Source: Pelotomaculum isophthalicicum JI
GTDB lineage: Bacteria; Bacillota; Desulfotomaculia; Desulfotomaculales; Pelotomaculaceae
Direction: 5' to 3'
Length of the DNA: 64,000 nt
Assembly: GCF_029478095.1 (NCBI RefSeq)
Contig: NZ_JAKOAV010000001.1
Coordinates: 186,001 to 250,000, forward strand
In this document: positions 33,741 through 51,449 of the stretch, piece after piece
Position numbering within the stretch: position 1 is the stretch's first letter
Layout of the letters: every line of letters starts with the position of its first letter
Made by a program: the position numbers and the translations under genes
The notes under the pieces: model-generated
Told to the model about the DNA's origin: nothing
Database searches by the model: none
What the model saw: only the letters and a program-made list of their open reading frames with translations

Positions 33741-35315
33741 TTGGCGTTGTCATTCGTCACCGGGGCGGTAGCCCGGGCTGCCATTGTCCTCGTCCTGTTT
33801 AACGTCGCGTCCAAGTTAACGGCGCTGGTGCGTGAAATGGTTATTGCCAGGCAGTTTGGAGCAACTTCCGCCATGGACGCCTACCTGGTGGCCTTTTCAC
33901 TTCCCTCTGTTTTGTTTTACCTATTTACCGGCGCGCTGTCAACAGTGGTTGTGCCCATCTATTCAGAATACGCCGCCGCTGGCCGGGAGCGCGAAGCTTG
34001 GGGCCTGTTCGGCACTTTTTTTAATGTGCTGCTGCTGCTCCTAGTAGTAGTTACCGCTTTGGGCTTACTCCTCGCTCCTTGGCTGGTTAAACTGCTGGCG
34101 CCCGGCTTTCCCGGGGACACACTCAGTCTGGCCATATCGTTAACCCGATGGATGTTTCCGCTCCTGATTTTTAGCGGCCTTACCGCCTTGTTCAGCGGAC
34201 TGCTCAATGCCAGGAATGTATTCGCGATAACCGCCCTGAACGGGCCTTTGTCCAATATTGCGGTTATTATCGCGGTCCTGGCCCTGGGTAGTCTCTGGGG
34301 TGTATACGGGATGACTCTGGGAGTGCTGGTTGGCGGAGTGGCGGGGGCGGTCGTGCAACTGCCCGCTCTGCGGCGGGTGGGATTTAGCTTCCGGCCCGGT
34401 GTGGCTTTAAACCACCCGGACCTTAAAAAGATCTTCAAACTGATACTGCCGATAACCATTGGATTTTCAATCAGTGAAACATATATTTTAATTGACCGCT
34501 ATTTGGCTTCCGGCTTAGCTGAAGGCAGTATTGCCGCTTTAAACTACGCCAACAGACTGATTCAAATGCCACTGGGCTTATTTGTAACTGCCGTGGGGAC
34601 GGCGGTATTTCCTTCTCTTACCCGCAAGGCTGCCGAAAAAGACCTGCGGGGTTTGGGGGAGGGGGTGCTCCGCTCACTACGGCTGGTTGTACTGGCTTGT
34701 GTCCCGTCGGCAATTGTGCTGCTGGTGCTGCGGGAGCCGCTGGTAACTCTTTTTTTTAAACGGGGTGTTTTCGATGACAGGGCAGCCGGTATGACTGCTA
34801 TCGCCCTGTTTTTTTACGCTTTTGGCCTGGTCGGTCAGGCAGGTGAGTTTATCTTGACGCGAGGCTTTTTTTCTTTGCAGGATACCCGCACTCCGATGGT
34901 CCTTAGCGCTATAGCCGTGCTGGTCAACCTAGGGTTTAGCCTGGCTTTGATTGGCTCCCTGCGGCACGGTGGCCTCGCCCTGGCTAACTCCATCGCCGCG
35001 CTGGTCGATATGATCCTGTTGACCTTTTTCTTGAACAGGCGGCTTGGCGGCATGTGGGCGCCGGGCATGTGGCGGTTTATATTGTTCGTCATGCTCGCTT
35101 CTCTAGCAATGGGCGGCGCCATTGAGGCTATGTCTAGTTGGTTAAACCTGCCTGCCGCGTCGGGAACGATCACACTGGCAGGGCAAGTTGGCTTGGTTGC
35201 GACAGCCGGTCTGGTAGTCTATCTAGCTGCGCTTACGGTTCTACGTATTGAGGAGGCCCGTCGGCTTTGGGATTTTGTTAAGCAAAAATTTACTAAAAGC
35301 AGCCGGGAGGCATAA
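33741..35315 (+). CDS. murJ: Lipid II flippase MurJ (first paralogue)
   Basis: A 524-residue membrane protein with about 14 helices. MurJ/MviN motifs are seen: SKLTALVREMVIARQFGATSAMDAYLVA (split over the first helices), LPITIGFSISETYILIDRYLASG and LIQMPLGLFVTAVGTAVFPSL. The start TTG at 33741 follows AGAGGGGGCGG. It lies inside the surface polysaccharide region, so it may flip a different undecaprenyl-linked substrate from the second MurJ at 51.4 kb, with which it shares the same architecture. Confidence 0.9.
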   Translation: MALSFVTGAVARAAIVLVLFNVASKLTALVREMVIARQFGATSAMDAYLVAFSLPSVLFYLFTGALSTVVVPIYSEYAAAGREREAWGLFGTFFNVLLLLLVVVTALGLLLAPWLVKLLAPGFPGDTLSLAISLTRWMFPLLIFSGLTALFSGLLNARNVFAITALNGPLSNIAVIIAVLALGSLWGVYGMTLGVLVGGVAGAVVQLPALRRVGFSFRPGVALNHPDLKKIFKLILPITIGFSISETYILIDRYLASGLAEGSIAALNYANRLIQMPLGLFVTAVGTAVFPSLTRKAAEKDLRGLGEGVLRSLRLVVLACVPSAIVLLVLREPLVTLFFKRGVFDDRAAGMTAIALFFYAFGLVGQAGEFILTRGFFSLQDTRTPMVLSAIAVLVNLGFSLALIGSLRHGGLALANSIAALVDMILLTFFLNRRLGGMWAPGMWRFILFVMLASLAMGGAIEAMSSWLNLPAASGTITLAGQVGLVATAGLVVYLAALTVLRIEEARRLWDFVKQKFTKSSREA

Positions 35316-49807: not shown

Positions 49808-50118
49808 AATGCCATTCTCCAAGTAAAGATAGGATGGATTTGTAAATAGTGACAAAACATTTGAGAGAGTTAAGTTTTTATTGTTAATATTTTATATTAT
49901 AACGCCAAGATAAGAAAGATTGTATACAAAGAATGTAGTTGGCCTGCGGACTGTCGGCGAGTACTTGAATAAAGCGTATATTATATATGAACGTGGAAGT
50001 GTGGAATAAGTGCTGGTGTTAAAATATGATTGCGTTAAAGAGACATCTGTCCTGATGAAGCTAGGACTTAAGTCCTATTTACATCGGGACCGATGTAAAG
50101 TATAAATAAGTTATCTGA
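49808..50118. other. Intergenic region upstream of the riboswitch
   Basis: AT-rich DNA between the divergent regulator gene and the riboswitch. It contains a perfect 14-bp palindrome AGGACTTAAGTCCT (50063-50076) and a 9-bp hairpin TTTACATCG/CGATGTAAA with a GGAC loop (50078-50099). No ORF is evident, and neither promoter matches consensus well. Confidence 0.55.
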
Positions 50119-50200
50119 AAAAGGCAAACATAGTGAAAACTATGGACGCAAAACTACGGGTCTAAAGTGCTGCGGGCGCTATGACAGCCGGGTTGCCAGG
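50119..50200 (+). promoter_or_regulatory. Cyclic-di-GMP-I (GEMM) riboswitch
   Basis: The sequence carries the conserved words of the GEMM class in order: AAAAAGGCAAACATAGTG, ACTATGGACGCAAAACTACG, GGGTCTAAAG, then CGCTATGACAGCCGGGTTGC. The 5' GGCAA... pairs with the 3' GUUGCC in P1; CATAG/CTATG forms the P2 stem with a GNRA-like loop. A terminator starts 25 nt later, so the switch probably controls transcription of the 60-residue ORF at 50322. Confidence 0.92.
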
Positions 50201-50224
50201 GAAAAACAAATTAGTTCCTGTGAC

Positions 50225-50254
50225 AATACCCGGCTTTATGAAGGGTATTTTTTA
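50225..50254 (+). terminator. Riboswitch expression-platform terminator
   Basis: AATACCC (50225-50231) pairs with GGGTATT (50243-50249), followed by TTTTTTATT. It sits between the cyclic-di-GMP aptamer and the small ORF, the usual position for ligand-controlled attenuation. Confidence 0.85.
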
Positions 50255-50321
50255 TTGCGCATTTTTCGTGATTTGTGGATAGGCGACTTTATTCTAATCC
50301 TCAAGAACGGGAGGGTGTTGA

Positions 50322-50504
50322 ATGGACCCAAATCCTATGGTTGTCGCGGAAACATACCGGTTAATGCAGCAAATCAGATTAAAAAAGGAACAAATAATAA
50401 ATGTGGCGCGTAAACCCAAGGACAAAAGAGCGGCATCCAGTCAAGATTTGCCGGGTGATCCGGATAATCCGCATCTGGGTAAAGAGATTGACGGGCATGT
50501 GTAA
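50322..50504 (+). CDS. 60-residue protein under the cyclic-di-GMP riboswitch
   Basis: A small, soluble, charged protein (MDPNPMVVAETYRLMQQIRL, then basic KKEQIINVARKPKDKR, and an acidic/proline tail). There are no Cys residues, signal peptide or membrane helix; the first 30 residues should form an amphipathic helix. GGGAGGGTG precedes the ATG. It is the only gene between the riboswitch terminator and a second terminator at 50521, so it is the likely target. The family is not recognised. Confidence 0.65.
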   Translation: MDPNPMVVAETYRLMQQIRLKKEQIINVARKPKDKRAASSQDLPGDPDNPHLGKEIDGHV

Positions 50505-50520
50505 TCATGCCAACAGCCTG

Positions 50521-50546
50521 AACCCGGTTGAGCGGGGTTGTTCTAT
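50521..50546 (+). terminator. Terminator after the riboswitch-controlled ORF
   Basis: AACCCG pairs with CGGGGTT across a short loop, with TGTTCT following. It lies between two converging genes. The T-run is weak, so confidence is modest. Confidence 0.5.
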
Positions 50547-50547
50547 A

Positions 50548-51165
50548 TTAACATATCTTTTCTTTAATATCGTCGTGAACAATATCAGCTGCCGTTTTTT
50601 TTGCCGGCAAGTTCAGACTTTTTTTAACGGTGCTTACCCGTTCAGGCATACTGCCTTTTACCTCAACATAGCTAATATTCATTATGCTCAAGAAATCTAC
50701 GATTTTTTTGTCTACTTCCAAAGCGAATTTCAGGTTTTGATATCTTACACCATCATCGATTAACTCAATTTCCCTCGGTATGTAAAATATCTCGTATTCA
50801 TTCAGATCTCTCATTGCCCATTCATATAGTTTCAGTAAAGCGTATTTCTCTTTTGGGTTATTAAAATTACAGGTAAGGATTCCATAAACGTAACATAAAA
50901 TTGTGGCATTGTCACAAAAAATAATATCGCTGCTCTTTAAATACTCCTCCCTTTTCTTTTGTCCTTCATAAAGCAGGAATTGCTCGAAAATATTAGTTGG
51001 CACTCCATAGTTGACAATGTACTCGCGGGCGAATTCTTCACAAATTGATGATATGTAACCTGCCAGACTGTAGTCTACGTCTAACTGTTTGCAGAGGGTT
51101 GTTTTACCTGTGCCCGGACCTCCTAAAACTGCTACCTTGATTGGTTTGCTGTTTTTAACATGCAT
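50548..51165 (-). CDS. P-loop kinase-like ATPase (AAA_28/NadR-like)
   Basis: About 205 residues. A Walker A motif VAVLGGPGTGKTTLCKQL occurs near the N-terminus, followed by SICEEFAREYIVNYG, typical of the AAA_28/NadR-like group (nicotinamide riboside kinase-type). IIFCDNATILCYVYG supplies a Walker-B-like acidic end, and an IPREIELIDDGVR lid-like segment follows. It lacks the N-terminal nucleotidyltransferase domain of NadR. ATG at 51165 follows GGGGAG; an earlier in-frame ATG at 51180 overlaps that signal. Substrate unknown; its base composition is more AT-rich than that of its neighbours, which may hint at acquisition. Confidence 0.75.
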   Translation of the reverse strand: MHVKNSKPIKVAVLGGPGTGKTTLCKQLDVDYSLAGYISSICEEFAREYIVNYGVPTNIFEQFLLYEGQKKREEYLKSSDIIFCDNATILCYVYGILTCNFNNPKEKYALLKLYEWAMRDLNEYEIFYIPREIELIDDGVRYQNLKFALEVDKKIVDFLSIMNISYVEVKGSMPERVSTVKKSLNLPAKKTAADIVHDDIKEKIC

Positions 51166-51315
51166 GCATCTCCCCAACATTAGTATGTTTATTCATCTAA
51201 GTCATTCGACATAATCCGATTGAAACCTTCATTATAATACTGGCCTTAAATTTTTCCGGGGTTATCGGCGCAAATAGGCTGAAATAAATTGATTAGAAAA
51301 ACAGGTGCTTGTATT

Positions 51316-51346: not shown

Positions 51347-51449
51347 ACAAGTGTATGAACAACACAGGAAGTTGAGATCGGGCAGGGAGCAGGGAAAATA
51401 AACTAATGTTATTACGGCATAAAGGTTCCCCTCGATGAAGGGTGATAAT

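Follow-up and report, generated by a model that had tools for sequence, protein, structure and literature searches.

A probable c-di-GMP-I OFF riboswitch upstream of a divergent yjfB-like gene in Pelotomaculum isophthalicicum

Described c-di-GMP riboswitches and YjfB

The closest described systems are the class I c-di-GMP riboswitches of C. difficile, which act mostly as off switches; one of them, Cdi-1-3, terminates flgB transcription upon c-di-GMP (PMC6200980). The direction of a class I switch cannot be presumed, since one C. difficile gene linked to this class rises more than 30-fold with c-di-GMP (PMC6200980). YjfB is an uncharacterised small protein of a flagellar sub-module, encoded in operons with sigma28 and FapA (PMC11607428). 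Thus there is precedent for the riboswitch class, for OFF logic and for motility genes as targets.

The locus described here lies in a 64-kb stretch of P. isophthalicicum JI DNA, which was analysed as a whole and is referred to as the window. It resembles Cdi-1-3 (PMC6200980) in combining a class I aptamer, a terminator-based expression platform and a flagellum-related target. Termination is caused by c-di-GMP in Cdi-1-3, whereas here it is a prediction; Cdi-1-3 controls a flagellar operon, whereas the target in the window is a monocistronic gene for a YjfB-like protein, and flagellar genes lie elsewhere. Like other RF01051 riboswitches, the locus has a complete aptamer with the conserved motifs and a terminator directly 3′ of it. 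Unlike the RF01051 targets known from the literature searched, the controlled unit is a lone 60-codon gene, not previously described as a GEMM target. We read it as an OFF switch acting on a divergent YjfB paralogue linked to motility, and put the probability of this reading, in which ligand binding, direction and motility role are predictions from sequence, at about three in four.

We did not find GEMM control of yjfB described before and regard it as a new riboswitch–target pairing. No paper in our literature search joins YjfB with riboswitches, an absence that is weak evidence, as subscription journals lay mostly outside the search; nor does any mention Desulfotomaculum along with c-di-GMP riboswitches. 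The available portions of the literature naming both Pelotomaculum and riboswitches give no sign of the aptamer–ORF unit. A direct c-di-GMP riboswitch on yjfB would be a functional clue, pointing to a protein that is wanted when the cell is motile and removed when it is sessile. It would also leave one "orphan" fewer among riboswitch targets, tie the Pelotomaculum c-di-GMP system to its flagella and give a handle on a widespread flagellar small protein. The features of the unit are as follows.

50063–50079, + strand: dyad AGGACTTAAGTCCT-ATT, just upstream of the promoter (exact site of the motif GGAC-N4-GTCCTATT at 50064–50079)
50078–50106, + strand: putative promoter TTTACA-17 nt-TATAAA, read directly
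50113–50200, + strand: c-di-GMP-I (GEMM-I) riboswitch aptamer (RF01051, 84.9 bits, E 2.6e-15)
50186–50193, + strand: switching strand AGCCGGGT in the aptamer 3′ half, 5′ strand of the predicted anti-terminator (complement of 50228–50235)
50225–50253, + strand: intrinsic terminator, AATACCC/GGGTATT stem and T run (AATACCC...GGGTATTTTTT), folding alone when separated from the aptamer
50322–50504, + strand: 60-aa divergent YjfB-like protein, sole gene of the unit (GGAGG ribosome-binding site at 50310–50314)
50521–50539, + strand: hairpin AACCC (50521–50525)/GGGTT (50535–50539), possible weak terminator, found by eye

Aptamer and expression platform

The Rfam match is full-length (model positions 1–87 of 87) and lies above the RF01051 gathering score of 35 bits; in an all-Rfam scan of the window no other match reached gathering level. 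The aptamer has a G at position 50123 and, within TTGCC, two adjacent Cs; these are candidates for ligand contact, presumably equivalent to G20 and C92 in the numbering of the Vc2 structure. The aptamer is real, and its class predicts an RNA switch that binds and senses c-di-GMP. The Rfam score and the terminator at 50225–50253 bear out the initial annotation, which had proposed a GEMM aptamer with an adjoining terminator. Its unit is real as well, with the start moved from 50119 to the promoter at about 50078.

The strand AGCCGGGT is a perfect 8-nt complement of ACCCGGCT (50228–50235), which lies inside the 5′ arm of the terminator; an OFF switch is therefore predicted. The AGCCGGGT/ACCCGGCT helix and the terminator are mutually exclusive, as the two helices of an expression platform should be. 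The predicted ligand-free minimum is the anti-terminator form, at −40.1 kcal/mol versus −32.1 kcal/mol for aptamer and terminator folded apart, both values being minimum free energies from a model that contains neither ligand energy nor kinetics. P. terephthalicicum retains seven of the eight switching pairs despite an insertion in the terminator loop, and keeps the terminator stem with a G-U change.

In the proposed mechanism, transcription from a constitutive-type promoter would begin right at the aptamer. At low c-di-GMP, AGCCGGGT would pair with ACCCGGCT, blocking the terminator and letting the polymerase continue into the 60-codon gene; at high c-di-GMP, the bound aptamer would retain the AGCCGGGT strand, the terminator would form and the gene would be off. 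During a shift to sessile life, such a switch would take away a motility-accessory YjfB-like protein. The predicted direction fits motility genes, because C. difficile flgB works likewise (PMC6200980).

A single 60-codon gene downstream of the riboswitch

The next gene on the same strand is murJ at 51435, about 0.9 kb beyond the ORF; the stretch between them holds a convergent gene for an AAA_28-type ATPase (50548–51180, − strand). Within this 0.9 kb the + strand offers no riboswitch target other than the 60-codon ORF, which supports the original assignment of a single small ORF to the switch. The same annotation had placed that ORF before a further terminator. The single ORF stands; the hairpin that follows it has a poor T tail and was not called by a mechanical terminator scan of the window. 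The post-ORF hairpin of P. terephthalicicum, with a CCCGGC/GCCGGG stem, is listed as terminator-like by the same type of scan.

Orthologues, both of 60 codons and with the same aptamer upstream, were found in Pelotomaculum sp. PtaB.Bin013, a MAG (93% identity), and in P. terephthalicicum (75%); the former (G112) and the window apparently belong to one species. Riboswitch and ORF thus occur together in all three genomes possessing the ORF, a favourable outcome for the homologue check that had been suggested. Platform, gene and hairpin stay together in both of these genomes. In P. terephthalicicum their order is conserved, and the stretch from the terminator to the ribosome-binding site has diverged. 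The window and P. terephthalicicum ORFs differ with dS 0.46 and dN 0.13 (dN/dS about 0.29) and zero indels; a 60-aa orthologue at this distance, still 75% identical and without indels, argues that the ORF is not a product of chance.

Relationship of the encoded protein to YjfB

Searched alone against Pfam, NCBIfam, PHROGs and PDB sequences, the window protein gave zero matches, and the P. terephthalicicum orthologue matched PF14070 (YjfB_motility, "putative motility protein") below threshold, with 13.8 bits (E 0.06) against a cut-off of 27 bits; by the Pfam rule neither is a member. The same genome encodes one clear YjfB elsewhere (G000:C30; 49.5–50.4 bits), and homology to this accepted member (50.4 bits) is evident. 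BLASTP aligns the two proteins end to end with 28% identity (E 6e-9, for a single comparison). Their Smith-Waterman score is 78, and none of 1000 shuffles reached it (mean 23.8, sd 4.4). A profile–profile comparison by hhalign gave a probability of 91% (E 9.4e-7).

The reciprocal searches covered 4009 six-frame segments, taken from the window and from further parts of the same genome. A Pelotomaculaceae YjfB HMM, built with the window ORF excluded, ranked the true YjfB first and the window ORF second (E 2.5e-5; third, 1.3), and an HMM of the ORF family placed the genome's own YjfB second (E 2.8e-4; third, 0.49). Taken together, the pairwise and profile–profile comparisons and the reciprocal searches make the 60-aa protein a divergent and fast-evolving YjfB paralogue, though it stays under the Pfam cut-off. 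These results contradict its earlier description as an unrecognised orphan. They also narrow the guess that it is an effector of attachment, motility or development: homology to YjfB favours motility, and the other two are dropped.

AlphaFold2, applied to three sequences, predicts one helix (residues 5–30) and a low-confidence tail (pLDDT 71.5). The ORF and YjfB have in common this N-terminal helix and a tail of the form (P)HLG..(I/L)D..V. The protein thus resembles the PF14070 family in length, N-terminal helix, conserved tail and collinear identity to the own YjfB, and differs from its members in its score and in a shortened middle part. Other weak matches of the ORF profile within the class came from three genomes (G046, G092 and G067). 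A further profile match, in G070 (E 6.7e-4), was rejected as a chance hit: it contains two in-frame TGA codons and lies antisense to a LysM-type gene.

GEMM-I riboswitches upstream of yjfB in other genomes

PF14070 genes were gathered from 113 genomes of the class, a phylum sample of 398 and 45 of one further family, giving about 110 distinct loci; Rfam and a model derived from this set were used to scan the regions around them. Four genomes have a bona fide yjfB that is preceded, at a distance of about 75–100 nt, by a GEMM-I aptamer: G092, G094 and G097, all from one family (f11), and G263 (family f21). The linkage thus concerns about 4% of the loci, with three of the four cases from a single family. 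If riboswitches were dealt to genes at random, about 0.16 cases would be expected against the four observed, taking roughly five GEMM-I aptamers per genome and an estimated 3400 or so genes. As G094 and G097 are close relatives, the independent cases number two or three, and we regard the enrichment as suggestive to strong but short of overwhelming.

The platforms of these units differ. L043 has a T-run terminator; L047 and L049 have no T run, and a CCCC stretch there pairs with the ribosome-binding region. GEMM control of yjfB may therefore have arisen more than once. A broader picture, which we offer tentatively and would not bet on, is that YjfB-type proteins have repeatedly become direct outputs of c-di-GMP among Desulfotomaculia and their relatives: yjfB would have come under GEMM-I control on several occasions and through unlike platforms (acting by termination in Pelotomaculum and possibly by masking of the ribosome site in the L047/L049 lineage), and the Pelotomaculum duplicate would have specialised as a rapidly evolving flagellum regulator controlled by the riboswitch only. 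In this genus, as in P. thermopropionicum, the flagellum also serves contact with methanogens.

Three other explanations of the locus bear on its direction, its protein and its output. In the first of these, the same YjfB-like gene would sit under an ON switch, with c-di-GMP raising expression and the protein acting as a brake or adhesion-phase factor. The C. difficile gene that rises with c-di-GMP (PMC6200980) provides a precedent, and platforms vary, L047 and L049 being without an obvious T-run terminator. In the window, however, the strand that would prevent termination is part of the aptamer itself, in its 3′ half, so the ligand should favour the terminator, and we consider an ON switch rather unlikely.

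Alternatively, the protein might be a small one specific to its lineage and without kinship to YjfB, its helix and tail being alike by chance or convergence. Its sub-threshold Pfam score, its low identity to YjfB and the restriction of ORF homologues to the genus would agree with this. The full-length collinear alignment with the YjfB of the same genome, unmatched by any shuffle, and the reciprocal best non-self profile matches, separated from the next by several orders of magnitude, point the other way, as does the independent occurrence of true yjfB genes behind GEMM-I; we judge an unrelated protein unlikely. That the ORF is a mere by-product, the true output being the terminated riboswitch RNA or read-through into murJ, seems highly improbable. 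For some C. difficile class I riboswitches, indeed, no coding sequence can be detected downstream (PMC6200980), but here the 60 codons are under purifying selection, the ribosome-binding site upstream of them is conserved, and the post-ORF hairpin and the convergent gene stand before murJ. The OFF switch on a divergent YjfB paralogue remains our preferred reading.

Promoter and upstream region

From the placement of TTTACA-17-TATAAA, the predicted transcription start falls close to the first base of the aptamer. P. terephthalicicum has identical hexamers at the identical 17-nt spacing. A consensus promoter scan of the window did not list this promoter, because its −10 hexamer ends in A. A perfect 10-bp inverted repeat, TTTACATCGG-GA-CCGATGTAAA, at 50078–50099 overlaps the −35 hexamer and the spacer; it is one of three such repeats in the window and is missing from P. 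terephthalicicum.

The motif GGAC-N4-GTCCTATT occurs at seven distinct sites in the genome (eight matches; zero for a reversed-pattern control): 50064–50079 of the window and G000:C1:165114, C7:29207, C9:60558, C23:55464, C33:35043 and C56:3355. At four of the seven, a GEMM-I aptamer listed by Rfam follows within about 100 bp; a fifth precedes a GEMM-like sequence that looks decayed, and a sixth is close to where a gene with a GGDEF match begins. The P. terephthalicicum copies are also preceded by this motif. The dyad is a possible operator for some regulator of c-di-GMP genes. The GEMM-like sequence, TTTGGCAAACTACCTGAAAGGATACTACGCAAAGCCACGAGTTTTAA, follows the motif directly at about 34900–35043 of G000:C33 (L168) and is absent from the genome's Rfam match list; it may be a riboswitch in decay, with a long open frame following in the same orientation.

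Further upstream, about 49990–50031 of the window resembles the 3′ end of a gene for a D12-class adenine DNA methyltransferase. Such a gene is intact directly upstream of the P. terephthalicicum riboswitch (L014:2850–3725) and has apparently been lost upstream of the riboswitch in the window.

c-di-GMP and motility genes in the genome

The P. isophthalicicum genome contains 12 GEMM-I aptamers, one c-di-GMP-II aptamer, 23 GGDEF matches and two flagellin matches. Its canonical yjfB adjoins a gene for a PilZ-domain protein with a weak match to the YcgR N-terminal domain. The YjfB-like gene of the window stands alone; unlike the canonical copy, it is located away from the neighbourhood of the deaminase-like and PilZ genes and lies behind a riboswitch, an arrangement that it shares with the yjfB genes found downstream of GEMM-I in other genomes.

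Two other GEMM-I aptamers of this genome, L008 (G000:C3:104030–104123) and L010 (G000:C8:104330–104417), carry AAAGCAA and TGCAGCAAA. They have an A at what is presumably the position where c-di-GMP binders usually have G, and could have cGAMP-type specificity. Between another GEMM-I aptamer, at G000:C56:3240–3323 (L003, L016), and the gene that follows it there are only a tiny basic ORF of about 35 codons and a strong hairpin.
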